Source: a virus
DNA length: 29,653 bases
Reading direction: 5' to 3' (one strand)
Virus record (IMG/VR): IMGVR_UViG_3300030108_000202
Coordinates: 1-29,653 of that record
Numbering within the stretch: position 1 is the stretch's first letter; every line of letters starts with the position of its first letter. The notes beneath the pieces are model-generated. The model did no database searches and was not told where the DNA came from. It worked only from the letters and a program-made list of their open reading frames with translations. Positions 3,393 through 22,216 of the stretch are shown piece by piece. Position numbers and translations under genes: made by a program.

Positions 3393-6300
3393 TATCTTAA
3401 ACCTTTTTCTACTTTGTCAAAAGCTGAATCCAAAAACCATACATTCTGAAAAGGTATTAGTCTACGCACATTACGAGCTGTATGGTGGTTGTATTGCCCT
3501 GATCCCCATGTCCACATGATGTCAGCTATGTTAGCCATCTGACTAGCAGTTGGACCTAATACATCAGGTATAGGATTATTAAATAAATCTCTATATGTAC
3601 CATAAGGTTTCTTAGCACCTAACAATGGTCTAAGACCTATTTCATTATTTCCCATTCTTTCTAAGGCATTGTTTACATCTGAGTAAACACCACCAATACC
3701 TGATCTATCAAATGCATCTACGATTTTTTGACCGAATGGTTTTTTACTATAATCTCTATTAAATGCTCTTTGTCTAAATGCATCAACAGCTGCACCAGCA
3801 CCTAGTAATAATAAAGCACCTTGTAATTGATTGAAATCTCTTTCTTGTAGTCCTCTAAATAACATTCTTTGTGTAGATGCCATACCAAACTTTTTAAACT
3901 GTGCAATCATACCTCCTATTTCTGTATTTGCCCAGTTAGGTACATCACCTTTACTTGGTGTAACAATATCTATATTTACTTGTTTACCAATAGCTTGATG
4001 GTAAGCCTCTCTAGCTGCATCATCTGTCCATTCATCTGAGTTAGCTACTCTTAGTTGTGTAAAGTCATCACCATTATCTTTATGTGTTTTTTTGCCATTC
4101 TTACCAACACCATGTTTTTTATATTGGTTATATATTCTAGCTGCCATATTTTCATCTATACCTAGATTTAACATTCTAGCTTTATTAACTTTAGATATAC
4201 TGCCTTTACCCCATGCTTCAGCAGATTCTAATAATCTTGTGCCATTAAATAATGCAGCAACACTTTTTGCTCCAGCATTCCAAGGGTTGCTTAAATTTAA
4301 GAATGTAAAATATAAATTACCTACTTTTGACAAACCTCTTTCAAATTGATTAAATACACCAAAGGCATCACCTACATCATACATACTCATAGCTCTTGAG
4401 CTATTGTACATATCAAATGCTTCACCACCTAGTTGTGCAGACTTCTTTGACATATTGAATACTTCTTTACTCATACCTGATGTAAAGACTTCCCAAGATA
4501 ATCTAAATGTTTTACCAATGCCATTAATCATAACAAGTCTAGCTGTGTCTACTACTTGTGCTATACCAGTAAGCATAGTCATAGAATTATATAATTTACC
4601 CATTCTTATAGCTCTACTAATACTTCTATTAGGATCTTTAGCTAATCCATATGTACCTCTTATAAGACCTATACTTACATCTAAATCATCTAATATTTTA
4701 TCTCTAGTTTTGGCTAGTGCTATACCTTCTTTAGTATTTTCACCAACCTCTTTTATTGCTGCTGTATAGTCATCATAGATTTGTTTTATACCCATACCAT
4801 AGTTACCTTTACCAAATTGTGTTCCATAACCCATAGGATCACCAAACACTTTAGTTATTTCTATATCTGGTATAACTTGATTCCAATATACTCTCATTAA
4901 CAACTGAGTATCATCTTCTATAAAACCAGCTTTGATTAAGGCTCTATAATCTATATCTAACTCTCTAGCAAAAAACCTTGATGATATTTTTTCAAAGTTA
5001 GTTAAATCATCTACATTATCATCTACCATAGTACGCCATGTTTGTAGTTCTATGTGTGGGTTGTATGTTTTAAAATTATTTATTAACTCATCTATTTCAG
5101 TTTTAGACATATTAGGATATCTAAACTTTAATTCTTTTTCCATGATTGCAGCAAAGTTAGCAAAATCATTGTTAATTTTATCTCTACGATAAACTATGTT
5201 TATGTAATTTTTTTTCAGACCTTGACCTGATTCATACATCTTAATTCGTTTTTGTAATTTATTTCTAATCCCTGTAAATTTAGCTAAATTATCAGCAGCT
5301 CTTGTAGAATTTGGTCGTCTAGCAACAACACTTGTTAAGTTAGCTATAATAGCATCTACTTTTTTAAGATACTGTTTGTGCCAGTTTAGAGGTATTTGTA
5401 GATCAATATATTCCTGACCTAACTTTTTATAGAAGTTTTTATCTAATACACTAGATGCTCTTTTAACAAACTCATTAGCATCATCAAGGTAACCCATTCT
5501 ATACATAAATACTTGCTGTCTAAATTCTTTTTTAGATAGCATATTTTGACCTCTGTTAAATGTTTGTTTAATATGTTTTTCTATTTTACCTTTAAATTCT
5601 AATCCCATAGATCTGGTATATTCATCATACAATGTATCTATTTGTCTTTCTACAATGTACACATCTTGATATCTTTTCTTAACTGATCTTTCTATACTAG
5701 GATTAGTTGCAATATTTTTAAAGTTCTTAACTTGTAGTAAAGGTAGTTCTAATACTTTTTCTATAAACTCTTGAGCATTACTTGTACCATTTTTTAGTAC
5801 TCTAAATACAGGATTGAAAGGACCTTTTTCACCAAAAACACCTAATCCAGTTGGTTGTATTTGATTTTCTGCTTGATAATCTTCTTCAAACTTTTTCTTA
5901 GTTTTTGGATTTCTCATAGCACCAGCAGAATCAGAAGCTATATTATCTGCTTCATCATACATATTTGCATATTTATCAAATTTTTTACCACCAGCTCTAG
6001 CAGTTGGGAAAATAGCTGGTACTATAAATCCAGCAGCAGTTATAATCATACCCTCTCTAACTGTTCTATTGTCATGTAATACTTGTTTTGTTAATTCTTC
6101 AGCACCTAGTACACCACCAAACTTACTTATTTGTGCTAGTTTGTTACCACTAAGCAATACATTACCAGCTTTAGTAAACATAAATAAACTTGTTATATCT
6201 GTAAAACCACCAAGTATTCTACCAGCTATATATGCTGGACTACCATAGCCATTTTTAACATTTTGTTTAAATTCTTGAAATAGTTGTCTAGCGTGTTCTG

Positions 6301-6577
6301 AGTTTTTGGCGTGTAAAAAATTAGGTATTATTTCTTCATAACCAAAGAATTGTGGATCTCGATATATATTATATCTATTATTTACTTCATGTTCAGGATT
6401 ATCATGTATAGCTGCTTCTATTATTTTTTTTGCACCTATTGCAATTAGGTTCTCGTCTAAAAAACCTTTACCTATGTTTTTTGTAGTTGTACCTAGATTA
6501 TCAAAAAAACTTCTAGGTTTAACTATATCATCATAGTAGTCATATCTTTTACCATCATAAGCAGTAACTTCACCCAT
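3392..6577 (-). CDS. internal virion (DNA ejection) protein, T7 gp16-like
   Basis: The product is 1061 residues, shorter than T7 gp16 (1318). Position directly after gp14- and gp15-like genes and before the fibre gene matches the T7 order. The C-terminal third ('GDVPNWANTEIGGMIAQFKK', then 'LQGALLLLGAGAAVDAFRQR') resembles the ends of gp16-like ejection proteins of marine podoviruses. Hydrophobic stretches around residues 113-165 and 176-194 could enter the membrane. I see no lytic transglycosylase motif, unlike T7 gp16; a lysozyme-like domain sits in the preceding gene instead. The likely job is to form part of the channel that carries DNA across the cell envelope. Confidence 0.82.
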   Translation of the reverse strand: MGEVTAYDGKRYDYYDDIVKPRSFFDNLGTTTKNIGKGFLDENLIAIGAKKIIEAAIHDNPEHEVNNRYNIYRDPQFFGYEEIIPNFLHAKNSEHARQLFQEFKQNVKNGYGSPAYIAGRILGGFTDITSLFMFTKAGNVLLSGNKLAQISKFGGVLGAEELTKQVLHDNRTVREGMIITAAGFIVPAIFPTARAGGKKFDKYANMYDEADNIASDSAGAMRNPKTKKKFEEDYQAENQIQPTGLGVFGEKGPFNPVFRVLKNGTSNAQEFIEKVLELPLLQVKNFKNIATNPSIERSVKKRYQDVYIVERQIDTLYDEYTRSMGLEFKGKIEKHIKQTFNRGQNMLSKKEFRQQVFMYRMGYLDDANEFVKRASSVLDKNFYKKLGQEYIDLQIPLNWHKQYLKKVDAIIANLTSVVARRPNSTRAADNLAKFTGIRNKLQKRIKMYESGQGLKKNYINIVYRRDKINNDFANFAAIMEKELKFRYPNMSKTEIDELINNFKTYNPHIELQTWRTMVDDNVDDLTNFEKISSRFFARELDIDYRALIKAGFIEDDTQLLMRVYWNQVIPDIEITKVFGDPMGYGTQFGKGNYGMGIKQIYDDYTAAIKEVGENTKEGIALAKTRDKILDDLDVSIGLIRGTYGLAKDPNRSISRAIRMGKLYNSMTMLTGIAQVVDTARLVMINGIGKTFRLSWEVFTSGMSKEVFNMSKKSAQLGGEAFDMYNSSRAMSMYDVGDAFGVFNQFERGLSKVGNLYFTFLNLSNPWNAGAKSVAALFNGTRLLESAEAWGKGSISKVNKARMLNLGIDENMAARIYNQYKKHGVGKNGKKTHKDNGDDFTQLRVANSDEWTDDAAREAYHQAIGKQVNIDIVTPSKGDVPNWANTEIGGMIAQFKKFGMASTQRMLFRGLQERDFNQLQGALLLLGAGAAVDAFRQRAFNRDYSKKPFGQKIVDAFDRSGIGGVYSDVNNALERMGNNEIGLRPLLGAKKPYGTYRDLFNNPIPDVLGPTASQMANIADIMWTWGSGQYNHHTARNVRRLIPFQNVWFLDSAFDKVEKGLR

Positions 6578-8067
6578 TATGGAGCAAACCTATCTTCTAT
6601 ACTTAATGCTGGAAAGTCTACCATAGATCCTTGTGACCATGCATTTAGTAAACCTGATAGATATTCAAATCTTGTATAGTTACCACCCATACCTTTTTCT
6701 TTTTGCATTTTACCATCATTATATAATTCGTTTAATAATGTAGGTTCATATCCAGCTAATGTTTTACCTTTAACTGCTTCATCAGATCCATCATATGATT
6801 GAAATGCACCTATGTATTTTTTATCACCAGTTTTCATATAGTTACTAAGTGCTTTTCTAAATCTTGGTCCAATAAAACTTGTTTTACCAGTACCAGATAA
6901 ATATGCTAAATCTACTAATACTACAGCTAGTAAAGCATTTCTATTACCTCTTAGGTCCATACCAATTAGTGTTTCTACTTCTTTTAATGTTTGATCTACA
7001 ATTTGCATAAACATACGCTGACCATCAATCATTTTAAGTTTTTGTTCACCTCTAGTTAGCTTATCTATGTCATATCCCATATCTTCAAGTAATTTAATAT
7101 TTCTTTTACCACCAGCAGTATTTGGATTTATAGAAAAACCATAACCTATAGTAGGATCACCTTTATCACTTGTAGTGTATTCATATAAATCTTTTGATAT
7201 TAAAGAATCTTCAGAAACTTTTTGCACTCCTCCTAATTCAGGTGGAGTTTTATCACCTTTATATGTAGGATCATATACTGTTGCATAAAACCCACCTTCA
7301 TGTTTTCCTGTAACATTTAGGAATATATTATCTACTTCTAACATTTTACTATCCTTATCAAATTGGAATACACCTGAATATTTTGCAGCTCTAGATTCAT
7401 CACCATAAAGTTGTTGTGTTTGTTCTAGTATCATACTTTCATATTGTGCTTGTTCACCTAACTCTTGAAAAGTATCGACATTGAAATCTACATCTTGACC
7501 AAAAAAGAATTTGTAGATGTTGCTTATTGCTGGTGTTTCGTTAATTATATTTTCTATACCTTGTAGTCCTTCTTTTCTAAGGTTTCCTATATTCATAAGA
7601 AAACCAAAAAACTCTCTTGCAGCACCATCTAATGCTGGAATATTTCTTATCTGGGCATTATCTGCTCTAAGTTTATTATATAAATTATCGTATGCTTGTT
7701 TTTGTATTACACTTTTTTTAGTTGGGTGAAATTTATCTAGTTGTCCTTCAGGCATAAAACTTGCATCAGGACTATTAGGATTACTTAAATTACTAAACAT
7801 ACCATCACCAGCTACATCTATGTGTATATGATATGTAGGTTTATGTTTTGTTGATCTTCTATCGTAAGTAAATTTAATTCTACCATCTTCTATGTATTGA
7901 TATAATTTATTAGATTGTAAAAATTCATCTGTTAATCCCATTTCGTTTCTTTCAGAATCTGACATCATATTGATTCTTCTCATAATAGTATCTACAGCAT
8001 CATAATTTATTTGATCTTTAGATAGATGATTGTAAGTGCTATATATAGGGTATTGTACTAAAGCCAT
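6577..8067 (-). CDS. virion-associated lysozyme (GH24-type) internal protein
   Basis: The product is 496 residues. Residues about 250-450 look like a T4-type (GH24) lysozyme: the glutamate of 'KHEGGFYATVYD' (E257), an aspartate (D266), and the threonine of 'GDPTIGYGFSI' (T306) follow the E...D...T order of T4 lysozyme, with an insert of about 35 residues between D and T. The N-terminal half (1-245) matches nothing I know; it is probably a virion-docking part. Flanking gp15- and gp16-like genes with 1-bp overlaps suggest it is packaged and opens the cell wall during DNA entry, replacing the transglycosylase fused to gp16 in T7. A lysis role is a less likely alternative. Confidence 0.75.
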   Translation of the reverse strand: MALVQYPIYSTYNHLSKDQINYDAVDTIMRRINMMSDSERNEMGLTDEFLQSNKLYQYIEDGRIKFTYDRRSTKHKPTYHIHIDVAGDGMFSNLSNPNSPDASFMPEGQLDKFHPTKKSVIQKQAYDNLYNKLRADNAQIRNIPALDGAAREFFGFLMNIGNLRKEGLQGIENIINETPAISNIYKFFFGQDVDFNVDTFQELGEQAQYESMILEQTQQLYGDESRAAKYSGVFQFDKDSKMLEVDNIFLNVTGKHEGGFYATVYDPTYKGDKTPPELGGVQKVSEDSLISKDLYEYTTSDKGDPTIGYGFSINPNTAGGKRNIKLLEDMGYDIDKLTRGEQKLKMIDGQRMFMQIVDQTLKEVETLIGMDLRGNRNALLAVVLVDLAYLSGTGKTSFIGPRFRKALSNYMKTGDKKYIGAFQSYDGSDEAVKGKTLAGYEPTLLNELYNDGKMQKEKGMGGNYTRFEYLSGLLNAWSQGSMVDFPALSIEDRFAP

Positions 8068-10094
8068 TATTCAAACGCATATCCATTTTGATTTCTCATA
8101 TCATTTAAAAATAATTTAATTGCAACATCTAGATTCTTTTTTAGATTATTTCTTGTTACTTCATAAGGATTTAAGTATCTAGAATTTAAGTATAGTAGTA
8201 AAGTATCATAATGTTTAGATACAACAAATTGTAATTCTTGTTGTAGTTTATCATCACTTAAATTTATACCACCCATACCAGCACCCATTTTTAAACCAAA
8301 TATTTCGTACATATCTTGTCGTTTTAGTATTTCTTCTGCAAATAATTCTTTAATTAATATATCATCATCTTCACCATCTGCTCCTAATAATACTTCATTA
8401 ATACGATCATTTATTTCACTAACATTGTTAGGTGTTTTTTGCATTAAAGAAAAATAATATTCATATGCAGTTTCTTGTGACACTCTTGCATCTTTAGGTA
8501 AGTTGCTAATCTTTTCATGTAAATCTAGTAAAGGCATTATATTATGACCATCTACATCTATCATATTAAAACCACTTCTTTGTGATAGGGTATATACTGT
8601 ACCAGCTATTTCTGCAATTAATCTTCTATCTACTTCGTCTTTATAGTTTAATCCACTAGCACTATCTATAAAGTTTTGTAATATGTCAGGCATTACTCCA
8701 TATGTTGATGCAAACTCTATTACTCTGTTTAGTTGCTCACTAGGTTGATTATTTCTAATGTCATAGCTTAAATCTATGTTTGCCATAGTTTCTTCGTTAG
8801 TAAAAAATCCATTTTGTGCATATGATTCTGCATAAACAGTTTTTAGTATATGATAATCTACTACTGCTTTTTTTACATCTGCATATTCATAATCTGTATC
8901 ACCACCACTTTGATTGTTTATATAATTCATAATATTATTAGTATGAAGATCTATATTAAATCCATCATCTAAGTTAGCTGATACTGCTACAATAGCTCTA
9001 TTAAGTGTTAAAGCATCATTTATTTCTTTTATTTGTGTTGCATCAAAACCCATACCAATAAGTTCAGATGGATTTTTAAATGCGTATTCATTTTGGAATG
9101 ATTGTATTTCATCCATTATAAGATTGTAATTAGTTTTAATATTTACTTTTTGTACTTCGTCTATACCTTTTTGTGTTGTTTCATATTGTAAAACATTATT
9201 AGTTATAAAAGTAGCAAGATCATTTGTTATTTGTGTTCTTTCCTCTTCTGTGCTGTTTGTTAATACAGAAAAACCATCTATGCCATCATCAGCATCAGCT
9301 TTTTTGTTATAAGCTGGTATTAATTGATTAATGATATATGACTGTGCTTTTTCTAAATTACTTTTACCAGTACCATAAGGAACTTGACCAGCACCAAACT
9401 CTGCTACATCTTGTGCATTTGCAATCGCTAATATGTTTTTAGTCTTTTTAAATATTCTTGCTCTTTCAAATATAAGTTTTATATCTTGCATAAAAACATC
9501 AGGTAAAGATAATGAGCCAGCATATTCAGGATCTAAACTTTCATATAAATTATTATAAGAAATCATTTTATTTTCTAAGTTAGGTAGAAACTGTTCTATC
9601 CAGTATTTATCAAACTCTTCGTTATTTAATCTATCTATTGTATTTAATTCAAGGTCTGTAAAAACATCCATACCATCTAAGAATAATTTTATAGAATCTT
9701 GTTGATTTTTATTGTACCACCTATTGTATATAGCATCACCTTCTCTGGCTGCCATAAGTTTAGAATATTTTTCAGTATAACTTTTAAATCTTGGTGGAGC
9801 TTTTTCTACTATAGTATTTATGTAACTTTCTGCTTTATTTGTAAAAGTATCAGGTTCTAGAGGGTGTAGTCTAGCTAGTTCTGTTAGATATGTTGTAGTA
9901 TCTATTTCAAACTGTGCTTTGTATTTTTCTTCTTCTATAGTTGCTTGTTTATTAGCTAAGCCAGTTAGTGTATCTCCTATAGCTTCAGCAGCAGCTGCTA
10001 TACCACTACCAGCATATGTAGGTACGACACCCATACGACTTTGTACAGATGTTACTGTAGTTATATTTTGTCTATTACCTTTTGTTAATGCCAT
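8067..10094 (-). CDS. internal virion protein, T7 gp15-like
   Basis: The product is 675 residues (T7 gp15 is 747). It is largely alpha-helical by composition, with no enzyme motif. The N-terminus ('RMGVVPTYAGSGIAAAAEAI') has a small Ala/Gly-rich helix followed by a long charged helical body, as in gp15-type core proteins. The order gp14-like, gp15-like, lysozyme, gp16-like gives most of the support. It overlaps both neighbours by one base (TAATG). In T7 this protein forms part of the inner core and then the trans-periplasmic tunnel. The family call rests on order, length and texture. Confidence 0.75.
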   Translation of the reverse strand: MALTKGNRQNITTVTSVQSRMGVVPTYAGSGIAAAAEAIGDTLTGLANKQATIEEEKYKAQFEIDTTTYLTELARLHPLEPDTFTNKAESYINTIVEKAPPRFKSYTEKYSKLMAAREGDAIYNRWYNKNQQDSIKLFLDGMDVFTDLELNTIDRLNNEEFDKYWIEQFLPNLENKMISYNNLYESLDPEYAGSLSLPDVFMQDIKLIFERARIFKKTKNILAIANAQDVAEFGAGQVPYGTGKSNLEKAQSYIINQLIPAYNKKADADDGIDGFSVLTNSTEEERTQITNDLATFITNNVLQYETTQKGIDEVQKVNIKTNYNLIMDEIQSFQNEYAFKNPSELIGMGFDATQIKEINDALTLNRAIVAVSANLDDGFNIDLHTNNIMNYINNQSGGDTDYEYADVKKAVVDYHILKTVYAESYAQNGFFTNEETMANIDLSYDIRNNQPSEQLNRVIEFASTYGVMPDILQNFIDSASGLNYKDEVDRRLIAEIAGTVYTLSQRSGFNMIDVDGHNIMPLLDLHEKISNLPKDARVSQETAYEYYFSLMQKTPNNVSEINDRINEVLLGADGEDDDILIKELFAEEILKRQDMYEIFGLKMGAGMGGINLSDDKLQQELQFVVSKHYDTLLLYLNSRYLNPYEVTRNNLKKNLDVAIKLFLNDMRNQNGYAFE

Positions 10095-10558
10095 TAAGTT
10101 TTATAGTACTTATAGTTTGCATAACCAGTTGTTAGTCCAGCTAATACAGAAGTATATCCTCCAAATGTTAAATCCTCTGACTTAAATTTATTTTCCAATC
10201 TCATCTGGTCATATTTTACATCTACAGACTTACCAGCAAGTCTAATATTACCTATGTCTTTTAACATATTTTGTTTGGCTTGTTTGTTAATATTAGTAAA
10301 ACTCATAGAATCATCATAGTAACCAGCTACAGATTGAAATGCTAAGTTGTTTGCTAAATCATTATTAAATGCAATAGTTCTAGCATTTTCTTCTTCTAAT
10401 GCTTTTAACTTAGCTGAAAGTCTTTCTGCTTCTATTCTTTTGTTTTCTCTTTGTAGTGCTGCTTGTTGCGCCCTAATACTAGATATTGTACCTATTGCAG
10501 ATACACCAGCACTTAATAAAAATAAAGACGAAGAAGATAATCCTATTGCTGCACCCAT
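10094..10558 (-). CDS. internal virion protein, T7 gp14-like
   Basis: The product is 154 residues (T7 gp14 is 196). Residues 3-27 are a hydrophobic, Ser/Ala/Gly-rich helix ('SSLFLLSAGVSAIGTISSIR'), followed by a long charged helix to about residue 65, then a mixed region ending in a second small Gly/Ala stretch. This layout is typical of gp14-type ejection proteins, which insert in the outer membrane in T7. It lies between the nozzle gene and the gp15-like gene, with one-base overlaps on both sides. Confidence 0.75.
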   Translation of the reverse strand: MGAAIGLSSSSLFLLSAGVSAIGTISSIRAQQAALQRENKRIEAERLSAKLKALEEENARTIAFNNDLANNLAFQSVAGYYDDSMSFTNINKQAKQNMLKDIGNIRLAGKSVDVKYDQMRLENKFKSEDLTFGGYTSVLAGLTTGYANYKYYKT

Positions 10559-12774
10559 TATGCGAATTGTATCTCCATAGCTAGTCCTAATACTTTAAGA
10601 GGTAAAGGATCGTTTTGTGAAATTGTTATTGTTGGTGATTTACTATATCCTAAGAAGTTAAACTCTTTTTTTCCTGTGACTGACTGCAAATCAGTATTAG
10701 CTGTAAAATCTACTTGTTGTATTATTAATTCTTTAGAACTTAAATCTGCTGCTTTCATGGTTATATCCAATCCCTCAGAAATATCTACTATAGCCTTATT
10801 AATCCTTCTTGGGTGTCCTGTCAATGGTCCACTTTCTATTTCTTTATCAATAGGCATAGTTTCTAATATTGGTGTAAAATTAAATCCTACTCTAACTCCT
10901 GTAGGAAAAGGTGCATTATTTAATGTAATTCTATTGTTAGAATCTACTGTATATAAGCCTAAAGAACCATTACCAAATACAGCATTTACTTGTGTAGTAT
11001 TTTCGTAAACAGCATTAACTGTATGTATAAATCCATCTACTATTGTAATTGCAGCATTATCAGCTGGTGTTGCAGCTAATGTTTTATTCAAAGTCAGGGT
11101 ATGTCCTGAACTTGTTGCTGTAACAGCAGTTATAGTATATTCAGTTGCATTACCAGCTATGGTAAAAGTTTCTTGTATTGCTGGTGCAGTTGTAAAACCA
11201 TCTACATTTAAAACACTACCTGATTGAGATCCACCATTAACAAGGGGTGTACCTTTCTGAAATACAGTAGTTGTTGTAGAACAATCTAATGTTACATTAT
11301 CTGTATCACTAAACTTCTCTAATAGATATTTAGTACCAGATGGCAAAACTCTCTTGCTTACTACAAATAAATCTTGATTTAAAGCTGTTATAGAATGAAA
11401 TTGATCTCCTGACTTAGTTTCCCACATAGTCCAACCAGCTATCTTTTCATCTCTAATACTATGAAATACACCTATCTTACCATTTTCGTTACTACCACTA
11501 TTAAGAAAAAAAGCAAATTGTTCAGGTCTTTCATTATTACCAGTTAACATAGATATTTGTTTAGGTGCATCTATAAGCTGTGATGATAATACAGATACAG
11601 CAGTAGATTTATATGCTTGTTCTAAATCACTAAATACAAACTCTCTTACAGCTTTACCATTTTTTTGTGTAAATAGTGTAGCACCATCAAAAGGTACAGG
11701 AGCTGCTCTATTGCAACCATAAGGTGTTTGTCTAAGAAATGTTATATTACTTGGTGTAACAGCAGCAGTATTACCACTTGTAGGTATGTAGTATTCACCA
11801 GCATCTGTAAATATCTGTAGATTTCTAGAAGATACAAAGTGTCTAATTTCATTAACTTTATCACCAGCTATAGCAACATTGATTGCTTCACTAGCTAATG
11901 CTGTACCGAGATCAAAGTTAAAATAACCACCTATTTGACTAGCTACAACAGCTGAAGGTCTATCTCTTACACCACCAAACCATAATCTATTATCGTGAAA
12001 AGATACAGCTTGTGGGAATCCTCTTACAGCAGATATAAGTTCTTCTGCCCAATCTGCATCTGCATCTGTATTAGGTAATGCTTCTAATACTTGAGCAGTA
12101 ACTTGTGTAGCAGATGTAAATCCAGTAATCTTTAATTGTTTTGGTGTATCACCTAATTGTATGTATGTACCATTATGAGCAGATACAAAGGTATCTGTAG
12201 AAGCAGTTAATGTAATACTACCAGTAGTACCACTAGGTGTTAGTGTTGTAGTACCATCTGCATATTTAAAAAAAGGTGCAGTAGTTTTATTTATACCACC
12301 AGCACTTACAGTAGTATCTTCTTCAAAAGTATAAGCAGAAACTTCAAATGTACTAGCTGATGTTCTTTTTATTTTTCTTATAGGATTATCTCTATGTGTT
12401 AAAAACACAGTATCTGCAAACTGTGCAAAGTTTAATTCAAATAGTTGAGCTGTAGTCCAGTTACAATTACTAGTAATGTTACTTTGTATTGCAGTACCAC
12501 TAGAATTAAAAACATCTAATCTATTATTAGAAAAAGCAAATATAGCTACTTCATCATTACTAAATATAAATGGTATGATTCTAGTTTCACCTACAAGAGC
12601 TGTAGTAAACTGTGTTGCTGGTCTACGCATAACGCCACCTTCATCAAGTAAGAACCAGTTACGACATTGCTTTGCTCCTTCAAAGTAAGCTCTAGCATCT
12701 GTTCTTGCGTTTAAATTTGAGTTAAGTTCTCCAGCTGAGAAGTTAGTATATACCTGTCTGACTTTTCTTGGCAT
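10558..12774 (-). CDS. tail nozzle protein, T7 gp12-like (tail tubular protein B)
   Basis: The product is 738 residues (T7 gp12 is 794). The opening 'VYTNFSAGELNSNLNARTD' and 'CRNWFLLDEGGVMRRP' is the hallmark of this family. The rest is beta-rich, with 'FHDNRLWFGGVRDRPSAVVA' around residue 255 typical of the propeller part. The protein forms the tip of the short tail and carries the fibres. It follows the adaptor gene with a one-base overlap. High confidence from N-terminal motif, length and position. Confidence 0.92.
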   Translation of the reverse strand: MPRKVRQVYTNFSAGELNSNLNARTDARAYFEGAKQCRNWFLLDEGGVMRRPATQFTTALVGETRIIPFIFSNDEVAIFAFSNNRLDVFNSSGTAIQSNITSNCNWTTAQLFELNFAQFADTVFLTHRDNPIRKIKRTSASTFEVSAYTFEEDTTVSAGGINKTTAPFFKYADGTTTLTPSGTTGSITLTASTDTFVSAHNGTYIQLGDTPKQLKITGFTSATQVTAQVLEALPNTDADADWAEELISAVRGFPQAVSFHDNRLWFGGVRDRPSAVVASQIGGYFNFDLGTALASEAINVAIAGDKVNEIRHFVSSRNLQIFTDAGEYYIPTSGNTAAVTPSNITFLRQTPYGCNRAAPVPFDGATLFTQKNGKAVREFVFSDLEQAYKSTAVSVLSSQLIDAPKQISMLTGNNERPEQFAFFLNSGSNENGKIGVFHSIRDEKIAGWTMWETKSGDQFHSITALNQDLFVVSKRVLPSGTKYLLEKFSDTDNVTLDCSTTTTVFQKGTPLVNGGSQSGSVLNVDGFTTAPAIQETFTIAGNATEYTITAVTATSSGHTLTLNKTLAATPADNAAITIVDGFIHTVNAVYENTTQVNAVFGNGSLGLYTVDSNNRITLNNAPFPTGVRVGFNFTPILETMPIDKEIESGPLTGHPRRINKAIVDISEGLDITMKAADLSSKELIIQQVDFTANTDLQSVTGKKEFNFLGYSKSPTITISQNDPLPLKVLGLAMEIQFA

Positions 12775-13379
12775 TAGGAAACAATCCCACTTCTACTACT
12801 CCTTCTGTTGCTAATAAATCTATTAGTTGACAATCTCTTAGTTGTTGTTTCTTGTGCATCAATATTTTTAGCTATAAGTAGTTGTCTTTCTGCTTGTTGG
12901 TCAAACTCATTTACTAGAGCAGAATCTCTAGCTATTGAACCAGCAAATATACTGGCTAACTTTAGTTCTAAAGCTAATCTAAAATATGGTGGAAATAATG
13001 ATTCATCTTGTCTAAATATATAATCCATGATGACTGTACTTTCATTACCATAACTATTCATATAAATTTTATCTTCATATCTTGAATAAGGTATTGGTTG
13101 GTCATTAACTGTAATAGCTAATATCTGTAATAGTTGTGGACTAGTTGGTAGTTGATATGCATATTCAAATCTACCAGCTGGTGTATCAGTTAAGAATGAT
13201 AATTGTTGTTGTCCTGTAGCAAAACGCCATCTAGCTCTTGTAAGAGTAGATTCTACTATTTCTTCATAGATTGTATTTACTACAAGGGATTCAGTTGTAC
13301 CATCTGTAAATGATGAGATAGGATTAGCTCCTATCATTATTAATGCTCTACTGGCAATATCTACTTTGGTAACTGCCAT
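12774..13379 (-). CDS. tail adaptor protein, T7 gp11-like (tail tubular protein A)
   Basis: The product is 201 residues (T7 gp11 is 196). The start 'DIASRALIMIGANPISSFTD' and the motif 'RARWRFATGQQQLSFLTDTP' are typical of the gp11 adaptor family. This protein makes the ring between portal and nozzle. It is followed immediately by the gp12-like gene with TAATG coupling, and is 4 bp from the histone-like gene upstream. Family, size and order all agree. Confidence 0.92.
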   Translation of the reverse strand: MAVTKVDIASRALIMIGANPISSFTDGTTESLVVNTIYEEIVESTLTRARWRFATGQQQLSFLTDTPAGRFEYAYQLPTSPQLLQILAITVNDQPIPYSRYEDKIYMNSYGNESTVIMDYIFRQDESLFPPYFRLALELKLASIFAGSIARDSALVNEFDQQAERQLLIAKNIDAQETTTKRLSTNRFISNRRSSRSGIVS

Positions 13380-13383
13380 TAGT

Positions 13384-14235
13384 TTATGCTTTACCTATTG
13401 CTGGTATTAGTACAGATAAGTTTTTACCAGTTATATTATTTACTCCATATTTATCTGCTAAGTAATTTAGTCTAGCCATAAATTCTTGTTTTTCTAAAAA
13501 GGATATATTATCACCTAATACAATACTATCTAATACAGCTACATTTTTTCTTACATCTGCTATATCTTTTGGTGATAACTGTTTTGATGAAAATACTGCA
13601 TTAGCATTTGCATCTTGAAATGTTGTACTAAATCTACCATCTGAAAGTCTTTTTACTGTATATCCTGATTCTTTAGGTTGATTAGTTTTTATTAATGATG
13701 CAGCTAAAGCACCAGTTGCAGCTAATCCTAAAGCACCACCAACACCAGCACCTATTTTAGCACCTTTTACTGGATCTTTTGCACTTACAAAGCCTGTAGT
13801 TGCTCCTAAAGCAGCACCACCAATAGTAGGTGCGGCTGCTAATCCACCAGCTAATCCTAAAGCACCACCAGTTGCGGCAGCAGCTCCTCTTGCTACTCTT
13901 TTTGCAGTATCTCTAACTTTTGGTCCAGCTTTTCTACGAGCTTTTACAGATGCAGCTTTAGCAGTTTCTTTAGCTTTTTCTACTGCTGGTTTTACTTTTG
14001 CTTTAGCTTTTTCTACAGCTGGTTTTACTTTGTCAGTTACTGGTTTTACTTTTGCTTTAGTTGCTTGTACAGCTTTGTCTACTTGAGGTTTTGCTTTTGC
14101 AACTGCTTCTTTTGCTTTACCAGATACTGCTTTAGCTTTTTTTGTAGTTACATCTACAGCGTCTTTTAAACCTTTTTTCTTTAATAAAGCTCTAACACTA
14201 CTTACTGCACTCTTCGCTATGTTCATCATTACCAT
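13384..14235 (-). CDS. histone-H1-like basic protein with glycine-rich hydrophobic core
   Basis: The product is 283 residues in three parts. Residues about 17-117 are rich in Lys, Ala, Val and Pro, with repeats such as 'KVKPAVEKAKAK', very like the tails of H1 histones and bacterial H1-like proteins. Residues about 117-183 are Ala/Gly-rich and hydrophobic, with GxxxG-type spacing that could be membrane-active. Residues 185-283 are a mixed domain I do not recognise. The start at 14235 is chosen because TTTGGAG lies 8 bases upstream. It is the first gene after the terminator that follows the capsid genes and precedes the tail adaptor. T7 has no counterpart here. Packaged DNA-binding or ejection roles are inferences. 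Confidence 0.75.
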   Translation of the reverse strand: MVMMNIAKSAVSSVRALLKKKGLKDAVDVTTKKAKAVSGKAKEAVAKAKPQVDKAVQATKAKVKPVTDKVKPAVEKAKAKVKPAVEKAKETAKAASVKARRKAGPKVRDTAKRVARGAAAATGGALGLAGGLAAAPTIGGAALGATTGFVSAKDPVKGAKIGAGVGGALGLAATGALAASLIKTNQPKESGYTVKRLSDGRFSTTFQDANANAVFSSKQLSPKDIADVRKNVAVLDSIVLGDNISFLEKQEFMARLNYLADKYGVNNITGKNLSVLIPAIGKA

Positions 14236-14247
14236 AATAAAATCTCC

Positions 14248-14274
14248 AAATTAAAAGGGGGGATAAACCCCCCT
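14248..14274 (-). terminator. intrinsic terminator after capsid genes
   Basis: Read on the minus strand, GGGGGG, a five-base loop TTTAT and CCCCCC are followed by TTTTAATTT. The six G-C pairs (seven with the flanking A-T) plus the T-rich tail make a clear Rho-independent terminator. It lies 8 bases after the decoration-protein stop, the same place that T7 has its Tphi terminator after gene 10. Confidence 0.85.
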
Positions 14275-14281
14275 CATAGTG

Positions 14282-14536
14282 TTATGCTAATTTAGCAGTA
14301 GTTACAGTTGTTGCTCCACTTGCAGAAGTTACAACAAGTAAGTCAGATTCTATAGTGCCACCTATACCATTGGCACAAAGGATCATATCGCCTTGTTTAA
14401 ATTCTGTAGCTGAGAGGTTAAAGTAACCACTACCTACAACAGTTGATGTAGCATCTCCATCTGTATAGAAGAAGATTGAATTGCTATCACCAGCTTGTGC
14501 TATTTTTTTAACAGGATTTGCTAATGCGTATGCCAT
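14282..14536 (-). CDS. putative head decoration protein
   Basis: The product is 84 residues, beginning MAYALANPVKKIAQAGDSNS. It is beta-rich ('GYFNLSATEFKQGDMILCAN'), with a Thr/Ala-rich end, a texture often seen in small capsid-associated proteins of marine podoviruses. It lies 9 bp downstream of the major capsid gene with its own AGGAG site, and is closed by a strong terminator, so it is likely made in large amounts together with the capsid protein. The decoration role is inferred from position and size. Confidence 0.65.
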   Translation of the reverse strand: MAYALANPVKKIAQAGDSNSIFFYTDGDATSTVVGSGYFNLSATEFKQGDMILCANGIGGTIESDLLVVTSASGATTVTTAKLA

Positions 14537-14545
14537 AATTTACTC

Positions 14546-15391
14546 CTATTCTGCACATTTCTGAATTCTTATACCATTGTCATCAATTAAAGTTGATCCC
14601 ATTGATAAATAAGAAGTCATTAGGTGTGCTACTTTCTCAGGAATATAGTTTACTTCAGTTCTTACTTCTGAACCTACTCCTAATCCCATTGAAGATTTAT
14701 GCCAACACACAGTGTGTCTGTCTGTAGAACCTGATGTCTTAAGACCTGAGTGTACGAAGAATAAGAATCCTAAGAATCTCTTAGTGGTATAGTTCATACC
14801 AGCATAAGGTAATTCGTTATTTCCTAAGTATTCAGTTCTTGTCCATTGGTCGTCAGCTAAAAGGTCTGACCATTGTGAAGGACCGATTGCCCAATATCTA
14901 GCATTGTCATCTGGCACAGAGTTTGTACCAAAGAACTCTTGCATTTCTTTGATCTTGTCAATGTTCATGTCTGTAGCTGGTGAAGCACCTGAAGCTCCAG
15001 CATTGTTTGCAAGAGTAGTTGCTGATGCCATTGCGTCTAAGATAATGTCATCTGTCTTTCTTCCAAGAGCATATGCAGCGTTGTTAGCTATCACAGCTCT
15101 TTCGTCAATATTAGTTTTCAACTCATCAAGCCTGTCGACATAATCTGATGCGTAGAAATCTGAAAGTGTAGCAGTTACATTTGAATGTGATATATTCATT
15201 GCAACTATCTCAGCGTGTCTAGCTTTGCTTGTAGCTTCGCCAGTACCTACTTTTTGGAACTTTACAGATTCTCCTGATACACCATTAACTGTACGAACAA
15301 GACCTTTGAGTTTACTCGCCATTCTTTGATATGCCATATGCACTTCAGCTTCAAACTGAGTGATAAAAGCATTACTGATTTGCGAACTCAT
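14546..15391 (-). CDS. major capsid protein
   Basis: The product is 281 residues (T7 gp10A is 345), with the pattern of the short HK97-fold capsid proteins found in marine T7-like phages: an N-terminal helical arm ('FITQFEAEVHMAYQRMASKL'), then 'VKFQKVGTGEATSKARHAEI' and the E-loop-like part, and a C-terminal 'GVGSEVRTEVNYIPEKVAH'. It follows the scaffold gene region and has a strong AAAGGAG site 5 bases before ATG. A 127-bp non-coding stretch lies just upstream, the largest gap within the virion gene block, fitting separate control of its level. Confidence 0.9.
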   Translation of the reverse strand: MSSQISNAFITQFEAEVHMAYQRMASKLKGLVRTVNGVSGESVKFQKVGTGEATSKARHAEIVAMNISHSNVTATLSDFYASDYVDRLDELKTNIDERAVIANNAAYALGRKTDDIILDAMASATTLANNAGASGASPATDMNIDKIKEMQEFFGTNSVPDDNARYWAIGPSQWSDLLADDQWTRTEYLGNNELPYAGMNYTTKRFLGFLFFVHSGLKTSGSTDRHTVCWHKSSMGLGVGSEVRTEVNYIPEKVAHLMTSYLSMGSTLIDDNGIRIQKCAE

Positions 15392-16729: not shown

Positions 16730-18290
16730 TTTGAGCCATATTAGCTTGTTGTTGTTGATTTTGCAACTGTGAAAGCAGTTCTTGCTGTTCTCCAGCATCT
16801 CTGATTAGTTTCTCAGGTAATCCCATCTTTTCAGCTAAATACTTAGCCATTTCATCTTGTTTTGCTACTAAATTAAGCATTTGTGGTCCAAATGTTTGAG
16901 CAAGTATAGATGAGAATCTAAGAACATCTTGTACATCTTGTTCATGCTGTGCTTGAGATAATGGTGATGTAGATACTATTTTTACTTCTCTACCATTTAC
17001 TTTAGGTATATCTATCTTACCCATCTTAATTAAGATTCTTATAACTCTTCTAAGCAAAGGTGTTATTAGTTCTGATTGTAGTCTACCAAATGATGATCCT
17101 ATCTGTGTAGATAGATCTGCCATTCTTTGAGATACTTCAGTAGCTGACATTGGTGTACCTTCAGGTCTACCTAATGTTTCCATGTATAATGCTTTTTTAA
17201 TATTCTGCCTCATATCTCCTAATACTAATTGTGCTACATCAAATCTACCAGCCGCTGGAAGTGCTTGTAATCCTCTGCTGTTTGGTGCTACAGGAATTAG
17301 ACTGCCCGGAGTTAGAGTTATTGTATCAGGATTAATTACACCATCATCTTCAAATGTATATATACCTGAGATATTCATTTGGGCGTTTTGTAATATTAGT
17401 TCTACTGTAAGGTTTGTAGTTTTGATTGCTGCCATAGCATTAAATACTGGTCCACGACCATATACTTCGCCACTAGCTTTATTCCATCTAAATACTATGT
17501 AAGGATTAGATCCTGATCCTTCTAACTCTCTTTCTAAAATTAATTCCTGATCTGTCATACAGACAACACAATATTTATATTTTTCTACATTAGGTTCATC
17601 ATAAACTTTAAACACACCTTCAACTATGTTTGCTTGTTCTGTTGGTGTGTCCGTAATTCTTTTCATCATTTTTTCAGACATTTCAGCTTTAGGATATGCA
17701 ATCATAATCTTATCATAACGCATAGTTCTCTTTCTAAATACTGTGTCTATCTTTTGGTCAGGTCCATTATTCAACATTACTCTAGGTAAAGGAACAGCAG
17801 TAAAGTTTATTGGACTTAATGCATCTCCTTCTTCTACTAGTAATACTCCTGTGCCTATAGCACAATCCATAAAGGCTTCATGTATTTCTTGATTAAAGTT
17901 TGAGTTAGCTAATACTTCAAAAACATATTCAGTTATCTTATCTAACTGTTCATTTATAATTGGTTTTGCATCATCAGGTATTTCAGTACCAGCTTGTAAG
18001 TTTGCCCATCTACCATAAGTAGGAACAATACCAGCTTGTAATCTACTAGCAAATTCTTGTATACCTACAACAGCAGTTTCATCAAATATTTTATCTGTTC
18101 TTCTTTCGCCTATAGTTTCTTCGTAGAATGATTCTCTTTGAGGCATAGTATATTCATATGCTTCTTCATATTTATCTTTCCAATGATCGTGTATTTGTTC
18201 TGCTTCTTTATATTTTTTTATGAATGATGTTACTCTATTATCAGTATCATAATTTTCTACAGGGGGTTGAGCTATTGGTACATATGCCAT
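16686..18290 (-). CDS. portal (head-tail connector) protein, T7 gp8-like
   Basis: The product is 534 residues, almost the same as T7 gp8 (536). Family motifs include 'YEYTMPQRESFYEETIGERR', 'EFASRLQAGIVPTYGRWANL', 'YGRGPVFNAMAAIKTTN' and 'MSATEVSQRMADLSTQIGSS'. The C-terminus is Gln-rich. It forms the twelve-subunit ring through which DNA enters and leaves the head. It overlaps its neighbours and is preceded by two small genes after the terminase block. Confidence 0.95.
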   Translation of the reverse strand: MAYVPIAQPPVENYDTDNRVTSFIKKYKEAEQIHDHWKDKYEEAYEYTMPQRESFYEETIGERRTDKIFDETAVVGIQEFASRLQAGIVPTYGRWANLQAGTEIPDDAKPIINEQLDKITEYVFEVLANSNFNQEIHEAFMDCAIGTGVLLVEEGDALSPINFTAVPLPRVMLNNGPDQKIDTVFRKRTMRYDKIMIAYPKAEMSEKMMKRITDTPTEQANIVEGVFKVYDEPNVEKYKYCVVCMTDQELILERELEGSGSNPYIVFRWNKASGEVYGRGPVFNAMAAIKTTNLTVELILQNAQMNISGIYTFEDDGVINPDTITLTPGSLIPVAPNSRGLQALPAAGRFDVAQLVLGDMRQNIKKALYMETLGRPEGTPMSATEVSQRMADLSTQIGSSFGRLQSELITPLLRRVIRILIKMGKIDIPKVNGREVKIVSTSPLSQAQHEQDVQDVLRFSSILAQTFGPQMLNLVAKQDEMAKYLAEKMGLPEKLIRDAGEQQELLSQLQNQQQQANMAQNELGIPQDQTGQQS

Positions 18291-19078
18291 TATGCAAAAC
18301 TCGATATCTTTTTAGCTTTTATGCTTTTACCAGCAGATGCATAGAAGTTTCTAGATTCTGCAGCAGTTGATGCAGCAGTACTAGCAAGTTTTTGATTTCT
18401 TTTTTGTACTTCTTCCATAACAGAAGCATCACCACCAGTCTGCCTATAAGTTGTTTGATTATTATTTTGGTTATTTCTTGTTTGATTATTTTGTATTACA
18501 TTTCTTTGTATATTAGATTCTCTATTTTGAACATACTGTTCGTATGGTTGATTTGTTAATAATCCAGCTGTAAAGAATGATGTCATACCAGTCATTGCAG
18601 TTGCACCACCTAATACTGCCATTTTAAATTTTTGTTGAGATTTGTACATATCTTTTGATAAAGGTATACTTATGTTTTTAGTTGCTTGGTAAGCACCTCT
18701 AGTAGCATTTGTAAATGTTAATCCTTTATCTGTTTGTACACCAGCTGTAAATTGTCCTGTTTCTTCATTGAAAGTTCCAGCACCAATACTTGCCAAATAT
18801 CTATTTCTTGCTTGGTTATATTCAGCACCATACATTTGATTACCAGTTCCTGATCTATAACCAGTAACTGTCATTTTGTTTGGACCTGAATATGTTTTTT
18901 GTATATCTAATTGTTGTTGTGCAAATTGATCTGCTCTCATTGCAATAGATCTATTTACATCTGAATCACTACCAAATCTATTTTTCTTTGGTACAGAGCT
19001 TTGATTTCCACCAGCTCCTGTAGATGTTCCACTTTGACTACTCAACTTCTTTTCCCTCGTAAAAAAATCCTTTACCAC
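18290..19078 (-). CDS. Asn/Gln-rich protein upstream of the portal, unknown
   Basis: The product is up to 262 residues. The start codon at 19078 is GTG; a TTG at 19045 with GAGGG eight bases upstream would shorten it by 11 residues and cut the overlap with the previous gene from 41 to 8 bases, and may be the true start. Residues about 1-35 are Ser/Gly-rich, about 146-172 are hydrophobic ('FKMAVLGGATAMTGMTSFFT'), and about 180-210 are strongly Asn/Gln-rich. I do not recognise a family. Its place between terminase and portal suggests a minor virion protein; the hydrophobic stretch might be membrane-active. Confidence 0.65.
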   Translation of the reverse strand: MVKDFFTREKKLSSQSGTSTGAGGNQSSVPKKNRFGSDSDVNRSIAMRADQFAQQQLDIQKTYSGPNKMTVTGYRSGTGNQMYGAEYNQARNRYLASIGAGTFNEETGQFTAGVQTDKGLTFTNATRGAYQATKNISIPLSKDMYKSQQKFKMAVLGGATAMTGMTSFFTAGLLTNQPYEQYVQNRESNIQRNVIQNNQTRNNQNNNQTTYRQTGGDASVMEEVQKRNQKLASTAASTAAESRNFYASAGKSIKAKKISSFA

Positions 19079-21176: not shown

Positions 21177-21699
21177 TTACAGCTTGTCTAAATGTTCTTT
21201 TAGCAATTTTTCTCTTATCTTTGGTCCAAGAGATTCTATTAACTTGTCTGCTTCCTTGTCCGTTACTGAACTTTCTGGAAGGAATTTTAGGTGAACTTTT
21301 TTTACGATCTTTCTTAATCGTTGCCTCTCTTGAAAAGTTAGAGGAAACAGTTTTCTGTTCTCTAGATTCACTTCCGAATCTATGTTGTCTGTAGACATTT
21401 AAAAACTCCTTAAATAAATTCCAATCTAGGTACACACTAGGTGGATTAAAGTCTTTTTTCAAGACTAAAATATCAGCAGAACCTTTCCAATCTTCTAGTT
21501 GTTTGAATCCTTGACCATTCTTTCTGGCCTTAACTTCTATAGTTGTACCATCAAATAGGTCATTAACATAAACATCATGTGGAAAGTCTTGTATAGCACC
21601 TGACATAGGTTGTCTACGAGAACTGTACCCTAGATCTTCAAATAATTTTACTATTTCTCTTTCTACTCTAGTGCCTTTTATCTTGGCTTTACTACTCAT
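21115..21699 (-). CDS. Holliday-junction-resolvase-like endonuclease with frame-extended tail
   Basis: Residues 1-100 fit an archaeal-Hjc/VRR-type PD-(D/E)XK nuclease: 'GTRVEREIVKLFEDLGY' with E14, 'RRQPMSGAIQDFPHDVYV' with D41, and 'TTIEVKARKNGQGF' with the E-x-K pair at 55-57. It should cut branched DNA before packaging, in place of the T7 gp3 enzyme. Residues 101-194 are basic, low-complexity and read through the whole of the 73-aa gene and 62 bp of terL, so they look like out-of-frame sequence. Removing one T from the T5 run at 21401-21405 would give a TAA stop directly before the next ATG. The functional protein is probably about 100 residues (21399-21699). Confidence 0.72.
   Translation of the reverse strand: MSSKAKIKGTRVEREIVKLFEDLGYSSRRQPMSGAIQDFPHDVYVNDLFDGTTIEVKARKNGQGFKQLEDWKGSADILVLKKDFNPPSVYLDWNLFKEFLNVYRQHRFGSESREQKTVSSNFSREATIKKDRKKSSPKIPSRKFSNGQGSRQVNRISWTKDKRKIAKRTFRQAVNGQVRLQTQWRNAKDISKGE
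21177..21398 (-). CDS. small protein immediately before terL
   Basis: The product is 73 residues, with 'FPLTFQERQRLRKIVKKVHL' and 'SSVTDKEADKLIESLGPKIR', a charged helical protein I recognise as recurrent just before terL in marine podoviruses; its function is not known to me. The ATG at 21398 has AAGGAG seven bases upstream, and the stop abuts the terL ATG. The whole gene lies inside the 3' part of the resolvase reading frame. Its family-like sequence and good start show that this frame, not the overlapping one, is the coding one here. Confidence 0.75.
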   Translation of the reverse strand: MSTDNIDSEVNLENRKLFPLTFQERQRLRKIVKKVHLKFLPESSVTDKEADKLIESLGPKIREKLLKEHLDKL

Positions 21700-21971
21700 T
21701 ATTTCTTTTTATGACGATTTGCAAAGTTTCTAGCAGATTCTACACTCCTAAATCCCCATGCTCTAAGTGCCAACGCTTTTCTAGTTGGTCTACCTTTTTC
21801 GTCTTTCATTGGACCTTTCATACCAGCGAAACGAGCAGCAAAAGATATTCTTCTTGGGTTCACTCCTCGTTTTACTGGTGATTTTAGATTACTACCCTCT
21901 TTCCTTTTGAAGTATTTTCTACCAGCAGCGTTCAATCCACCTTTTGGATTTTGATATTTCTTCGCTACCAT
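21699..21971 (-). CDS. DUF6321-like small basic protein
   Basis: The product is 90 residues and very basic. It shows the pattern 'GGLNAAGRKYFKRKEGSNLK', 'ISFAARFAGMKGPMKDEKGR' and 'PTRKALALRAWGF', which I recognise as DUF6321, a family of small proteins from phages and environmental viruses with unknown function. It overlaps the resolvase start by one base and belongs to a set of five tiny basic genes. Binding of nucleic acid is plausible from charge alone. Confidence 0.8.
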   Translation of the reverse strand: MVAKKYQNPKGGLNAAGRKYFKRKEGSNLKSPVKRGVNPRRISFAARFAGMKGPMKDEKGRPTRKALALRAWGFRSVESARNFANRHKKK

Positions 21972-22216
21972 TAGAAACTTCTATACTTTCTTACTTTAGC
22001 AGCAATACCTTTTGGTTGTTTGCTAAATTGTTTCCCAGACTTCTTGGCTTTTCTTTTTGCAGCTGTGGTTCTAGCATACTCAGACGCACTTAATGCCTTA
22101 ATAGCAGAACTAGGTAGGTATCTTTCGCCTGTTTCAGACGATTTTTTACCTGACTTAGTACGCCATTTCTGCTTTCCCCATGCTGTAAGTGATTGTTGTC
22201 GTCTAGTCTTTGACAT
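21971..22216 (-). CDS. DUF5872-like small basic protein
   Basis: The product is 81 residues. 'SLTAWGKQKWRTKSGKKSSE', 'TGERYLPSSAIKALSASEYA' and 'KSGKQFSKQPKGIAAKVRKY' match the DUF5872-type family of viral and environmental proteins. The function is not known. The charge is strongly positive throughout. It is linked by one-base overlaps to the genes on either side. Confidence 0.8.
   Translation of the reverse strand: MSKTRRQQSLTAWGKQKWRTKSGKKSSETGERYLPSSAIKALSASEYARTTAAKRKAKKSGKQFSKQPKGIAAKVRKYRSF

Follow-up and report, generated by a model that had tools for sequence, protein, structure and literature searches.

An optional and modular three-part protein encoded between the capsid and tail adaptor genes of marine podoviruses

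The tail channel of T7 contains gp7.3, which has been placed by cryo-EM at the adaptor/nozzle junction with its lysines near the DNA end, is ejected, and is required to form infective T7 (PMC11784390). The T7 proteins gp6.7 and gp14 also leave the virion, as gp7.3 does, and both form part of the channel (PMC11784390). The internal proteins Ip1-3 of T4 are non-essential, carry an N-terminal packaging signal, are injected, and inhibit host restriction (PMC12373910). Between T7 genes 10 and 11 no gene is present, as was correctly stated in the first-pass annotation of the DNA described below; a transcription terminator is located there.

The window analyzed here is the whole stretch of 29,653 nucleotides of the IMG/VR virus record IMGVR_UViG_3300030108_000202. 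Its minus strand encodes at 13384-14235 an accessory protein of 283 aa, designated P0001, in a frame that is open throughout, starts with ATG, and follows the ribosome-binding motif GGAG located 8 nt upstream of the ATG. A total of 66 distinct family proteins, 59 of them complete, were identified on IMG/VR contigs, and since these relatives keep the N-terminus, the basic stretch, the Ala/Gly 19-mer and the C-terminal domain (C-domain), P0001 is no chance reading frame. The dN/dS ratio of the C-domain is mostly 0.1-0.5 for the closest pairs without saturation; ratios above 1 in the middle region were dropped as a sign of selection, the middle being replaced or not alignable. Frame, composition and homologues agree on a protein of three parts, basic, Ala/Gly-rich and a separate C-terminal domain, as had been proposed beforehand. 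Within the window, a high net charge combined with a hydrophobic segment is found only in P0001 and in a 1061-aa internal protein.

The structural genes on the minus strand are ordered as terminase (21176-19656), portal (PF12236), scaffold, major capsid protein (MCP; 14546-15391; PF19821, E 2.7e-72; phrog_3437), a gene of 84 aa (s84; 14282-14536; the unknown-function family phrog_18004, E 8e-8), a terminator-like hairpin, and P0001. Directly downstream of P0001 is the gp11-like tail adaptor (12774-13379; phrog_394 tail protein, E 1.4e-38), followed by the nozzle gp12, a gp14-like gene assigned by position and pattern (10094-10558), the gp15-like internal protein counterpart (8067-10094), and a gp16-like gene (3392-6577; phrog_342, E 5e-39). 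The location of P0001 between capsid and tail adaptor is thus as first described, except that the 84-aa gene and the hairpin also intervene on the capsid side. The hairpin, GAGGGGGGTTTATCCCCCCTT at 14255-14275 on the minus strand, was detected by terminator scan with an RNA fold of -16 kcal/mol, and is located after the capsid-side genes and directly upstream of the ribosome-binding site of P0001; its fold z is only -0.9, as shuffles keep the G/C runs. It is a strong GC hairpin in an AT-rich phage, at the place of the T7 terminator T-phi, and relatives have an equivalent hairpin in other letters, whether their slot is empty or filled.

The same slot is used throughout the family. In 127 of 128 judgeable matches, gp11 comes directly after the family gene; the remaining match is the first member of a tandem pair. 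The 84-aa gene directly precedes the family gene in 119 of 121. Deviations from these neighbors come from the tandem pair in L153 and from L081, where the gene is shortened (177 aa). In L153 (4425-6251), two different family members of two subtypes are arranged in tandem between the 84-aa gene and gp11. The slot also takes other small basic ORFs, as in L120, L122 and L125 (91 aa), L124 (63 aa) and L113 (67 aa), and in L066/L067 a 67-aa ORF of charge +19 is located between the family gene and gp11.

The likeness of the phage to T7 is confined to the structural genes, since the right part of the window encodes SSB and a YqaJ recombinase, and the small subunit of the terminase belongs to the Terminase_2 type; the initial classification as a T7-like phage holds for the structural part and fails for these genes. 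Among cultured phages, Pelagibacter phage Hodr (portal 57% and capsid 56% identical) and Methylophilales phage MEP301 come closest in these two proteins, and the P0001 family gene was found in neither. The genome-collection matches to the capsid were only MAG contigs of 36-54% identity, all of which are without the P0001 gene.

Variation is also observed in other genes of the window. A 262-aa protein (p262; 18290-19078, minus strand), whose gene lies immediately upstream of the portal gene, where T7 has gp6.7/gp7.3, carries a hydrophobic stretch and the basic C-terminal end GKSIKAKKISSFA; relatives have a protein at this position whether or not they carry the P0001 gene, and it is strongly variable. 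Two small K-rich genes (21699-21971 and 21971-22216, minus strand) are located upstream of the terminase, the first matching DUF6321 (E 1.7e-25). A K-rich gene pair directly upstream of the portal in G010 was considered as a relocated copy of P0001 and rejected, the pair rather looking like counterparts of these two genes. The gp15-like protein and the next protein (6577-8067, minus strand) are 24-40% identical in relatives with capsids 82-86% identical, and in G007 and G003 a single protein of 1216-1221 aa replaces both.

Relatives of P0001 were absent from 50,697 phage records searched by tblastn, and Pfam, PHROG, NCBIfam and PADLOC contained no family for it, yielding only weak, composition-driven matches. 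As judged from sequence comparison, P0001 represents a new protein family, absent from the collections searched. The best PADLOC match (E 0.007) is confined to the basic and Ala/Gly stretches. A PDB sequence match to HP0242 (E 3e-5) was rejected because its value adds up two weak stretches that are repeated in an engineered tandem protein (E 0.1-0.6 per stretch; 0.02 for the natural protein). Matches to alpha-synuclein were set aside as amphipathic and composition patterns, and gp29 of Helicobacter phage KHP30 (E 0.05), which has no basic or hydrophobic part, was dropped. The first-pass annotation knew of no described protein with this combination of parts in T7-like phages; the family is absent from the collections, but the statement is to be qualified by T7 gp7.3, which combines a K-rich start with GGLAGLAGG in a short protein.

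The conserved N-terminus of P0001 (residues 4-34; 14134-14226, minus strand), was identified by family alignment and N-terminal profile search. In the family it starts with 'MAI..' (in P0001, MNIAKSAVSSVRALLKKKGLKDAVDVTTKKA), forms a K-rich amphipathic helix, and occurs in several subtypes. The N-terminal profile gave no match on proteins outside the family; two extra matches were contig-end ORFs in the same slot and were counted as truncated members. The N-terminus is a possible targeting signal, and since the motif occurs on no other protein, it is at most a candidate packaging signal.

The N-terminus is followed by a hypervariable basic K/A stretch (residues 35-117; 13885-14133, minus strand), recognized by composition and helical moment and replaced as a whole in L007. 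Residues 33-117 contain 27% K, 25% A, 6% P and 8% D+E, and residues 1-182 carry a net charge of +28; among the 59 complete members, the net charge of the basic N-terminal and middle part is +26 in median, within a range of +13 to +37. The stretch is amphipathic at helical periodicity, with a z of 2.4 in P0001 and a median of 2.6, positive in 31 of the 31 members tested. The middle of the family proteins thus varies in length and sequence and keeps its helical amphipathicity. The best profile match of the basic stretch was an apolipoprotein-like amphipathic helix (E 0.0003 for P0001; 9.5e-9 for the best member), far under the family cut-off (21 bits against 90), indicating a likeness of pattern and not of descent.

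The K/A-rich stretch, a feature that P0001 shares with histone H1, Hc1 and HC2, together with some P, had led the first-pass annotation to recognize an H1-type tail, and to propose that the protein condenses the leading DNA end or acts on the host nucleoid. DNA binding would be allowed by the net charge of residues 1-182. At E<=1, however, Pfam gave P0001 no H1, Hc1 or HC2 model. Unlike these proteins, the stretch shows an amphipathic helical pattern with acidic residues, and a membrane-type segment is conserved in the same protein. Literature on histone-H1-like virion proteins yielded only an unrelated jumbo-phage paper (subscription journals were mostly outside this search). The gene is, in addition, optional (see below), and condensation of the H1 type is regarded as very improbable. 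A role of P0001 around DNA ejection, as first proposed, is possible in modified form, but the optional and mosaic nature of the gene argues against its being indispensable for DNA condensation or delivery.

The third feature is the Ala/Gly hydrophobic segment or segments (residues 118-183; 13687-13884, minus strand; 32% A and 24% G), which end in a 19-mer kept in character family-wide. An Ala/Gly 19-mer with no more than one charged residue lies directly N-terminal of the C-domain in all 59 complete members. Its hydrophobicity is only moderate (median Kyte-Doolittle 1.56, range 1.22-1.93). In the AF2 model of P0001, residues 1-189, the Ala/Gly part included, were below pLDDT 50 and the C-domain folded; the Ala/Gly region may be either a hairpin or a single span.

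A basic N-terminal part, a membrane-type segment and a folded domain together make a plausible single-span protein, and P0001 could accordingly be made late, stay out of the virion and reside in the membrane of the infected cell, its C-domain facing one side of the inner membrane, for instance for superinfection exclusion or as an accessory of lysis. Exclusion functions are typically optional and variable, and a late protein that is not part of the virion could also be encoded at this place in the structural operon. The exclusion genes of lytic phages are usually early, however, and the P0001 gene is the first of the tail block; furthermore, at least 100 residues at a median net charge of +26 exceed what a membrane anchor needs. 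Such a role is considered quite unlikely.

The C-terminal domain (residues 184-283; 13387-13686, minus strand) is of ordinary composition. Modeled alone by AF2 with 50 sequences, it gave a pLDDT of 89 and a pTM of 0.80 with the arrangement beta3-alpha2-beta2, and is predicted to fold autonomously. The fold search with Foldseek against PDB and BFVD and with VIA-align gave no clear match, the best Z of 4.6-4.7 being inside the noise level stated for the tool. On the basis of this model, the C-domain is an orphan fold with no clear known counterpart. In sequence, the first 40 residues align with YegP/UPF0339 (2k8e), with E 0.0014 for the whole sequence and 0.05 for the best single stretch. The YegP/UPF0339 Pfam family was detected in none of 50 members at E 0.1; YegP was not among the structural matches listed for the C-domain, from which exclusion of the YegP fold does not follow. 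The YegP likeness of the start of the domain is a lead only. The separate search with the C-domain, as had been suggested, thus gave no clear profile or fold match and assigned no other function to it.

The presence of the gene was mapped on the MCP tree, which included 58 carriers, 23 empty slots and five slots with another small ORF; these loci were collected by capsid alone, together with those found through the P0001 family, and the counts are not prevalence. Presence and absence require at least six changes on the tree, four of which are forced by well-supported branches. The capsid genes of L071 (empty) and L077 (filled) are 99.2% identical in nucleotides with gp11 at 93%, and those of L052 (empty) and L054 (filled) are 98.6% identical with gp11 at 94%. 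In the empty slot the hairpin leads straight to gp11, and in the filled slot the ribosome-binding site and the gene are inserted between the two. In 11 records whose slot has no family gene, several of them incomplete genomes, none was found elsewhere. The P0001 gene is accessory, near relatives being cleanly without it. The carriers all belong to one clade, in which capsid identity is at least about 79%, and the gene is lacking in 15 rows of the sister clade (about 70%), in Hodr and MEP301, and in three MAG-borne relatives. From this distribution, the simplest history would be a gain at the base of the carrier clade, followed by losses and exchange.

These empty slots bear on the resemblance to T7 gp7.3. 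The sequence of gp7.3, which is a podovirus virion protein, has a K-rich start followed by GGLAGLAGG, and P0001 likewise has a K-rich segment followed by a Gly/Ala stretch; this is a likeness of pattern only, and homology is not claimed. P0001 might then be the equivalent tail-channel assembly factor, closing the adaptor/nozzle junction, retaining the end of the DNA and departing first at ejection, and in support of this the P0001 gene abuts gp11 and the similar short segment of gp7.3 is located at that junction (PMC11784390). The two proteins differ, however, in size (99 aa for gp7.3 against 283 aa), in the C-domain, to which gp7.3 has nothing comparable, and in gene position, the gp7.3 gene lying upstream of the portal and the P0001 gene between the 84-aa gene and gp11. 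Moreover, gp7.3 is needed for infectivity (PMC11784390), whereas P0001 is, as inferred from genomes, dispensable in natural relatives, being absent from some whose capsid genes are 96-99% identical. The protein in the gp6.7/gp7.3 position upstream of the portal is itself present with and without the P0001 gene. An assembly factor of this type is therefore improbable.

In four virus groups, most flanking structural genes are about 98-100% identical in nucleotides to those of the window, and somewhat less so p262, gp14 and gp15. Against this background, L006 is 98% identical to the window in the N-terminal part and the middle but has a C-domain without detectable nucleotide similarity, with gp11 at 99.3% and gp12 at 98.7%. 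L007 has an N-terminal part of 100% and a C-domain of 98% identity with an essentially unrelated middle between them, and L003-L005 have a middle of 80% flanked by near-identical ends. Exchange is seen also between more distant phages: the C-domains of L006 and L076 are about 91% identical in nucleotides, with the MCP at 77% and the remainder of the gene mostly at 55-70%, the identity climbing at the C-domain boundary, and L054 and L077 share a C-module of 95% identity with MCP and gp11 both at 83%. These comparisons indicate that the ends and the middle move independently, also between lineages. Since the C-domain was exchanged in L006 with gp11 and gp12 at least 98.7% identical, gp11 and gp12 do not dictate the type of C-domain. 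The family gene occupies a fixed slot, is optional in its presence, exchanges its modules and is transferred horizontally.

An optional, horizontally exchanged C-domain would be expected also of a co-injected anti-defense effector of the T4 internal-protein type, in which the N-terminus serves for packaging, the C-domain blocks a defense enzyme in the host cytoplasm, and the hydrophobic segment merely aids packaging or passage. P0001 is similar to Ip1-Ip3 as an optional, variable gene with a conserved N-terminus followed by a variable body (PMC12373910), and the tandem pair of two subtypes in L153 is comparable to the multiple Ip genes. The Ips are, however, myovirus head proteins with a characterized packaging signal, and the N-terminus of P0001 stays when the middle is replaced and is found on no other protein; no T4 Ip sequence match to P0001 was found in the Pfam and PHROGs family libraries. 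In addition, a soluble cytoplasmic inhibitor does not need the charge-poor Ala/Gly segment carried by every complete member, and the defense library gave no meaningful match, as the PADLOC value above indicates. An effector of this type is unlikely, with some real chance of being correct.

P0001 is tentatively interpreted, with confidence somewhat short of even, as an optional minor virion protein that is ejected at infection, its basic part holding it, its Ala/Gly segment inserting, and its C-domain facing the host. The gene would be an optional late gene that opens the tail block behind the capsid hairpin, and its product would be carried near the DNA exit end and leave the particle together with the genome or before it. 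Retention in the particle, on the DNA, the core or the tail channel, would be the task of the basic amphipathic N-terminal part; the moderately hydrophobic Ala/Gly segment, which suits a protein soluble in the particle, would insert into a host membrane once ejected; and the folded C-domain would finally engage a host component, either acting on it or being recognized by it. We infer virion presence, ejection, membrane insertion and a host target of P0001 from these features. For such delivery, the T7 proteins gp6.7, gp7.3 and gp14 and the T4 internal proteins set precedents; the only moderate hydrophobicity of the Ala/Gly segment, its low-confidence AF2 model and the restriction of the N-terminal motif to this family count against the interpretation. 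Because host components vary, the gene would be gained, lost and recombined module by module. As the product of an optional gene heading the tail block, with its C-domain swapped without change of gp11 and gp12, P0001 is improbable as an assembly part, and a host-facing role is more probable. T7 gp14, gp15 and gp16 share with P0001 the operon and the presumed route into the host, but their counterparts are separate genes in the window and in relatives without P0001, and the gp15/lysozyme region differs greatly between lineages. The general DNA-delivery machinery would thus be encoded apart from P0001.

In a wider interpretation, which we consider doubtful but worth stating, the family may stand for a new class of phage-delivered, membrane-embedded host-interaction proteins, in which a conserved chassis of targeting N-terminus, basic helix and membrane segment is combined with exchangeable orphan-fold modules at one recombination slot behind the capsid terminator of nearly clonal marine phages.

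The P0001 gene clearly illustrates how modules recombine within one late phage gene, and the natural pairs of empty and filled slots and of swapped modules are ready-made genetic comparisons. The C-domain, as a well-predicted orphan fold, could be amenable to expression and structure solution. An optional, swapped, lysine-rich protein at a fixed spot is what would be expected if the protein enters the host cell and is adapted to it. If P0001 is indeed ejected, its exchangeable domain would point to a host target that decides which marine cells these uncultured podoviruses can enter or overcome.
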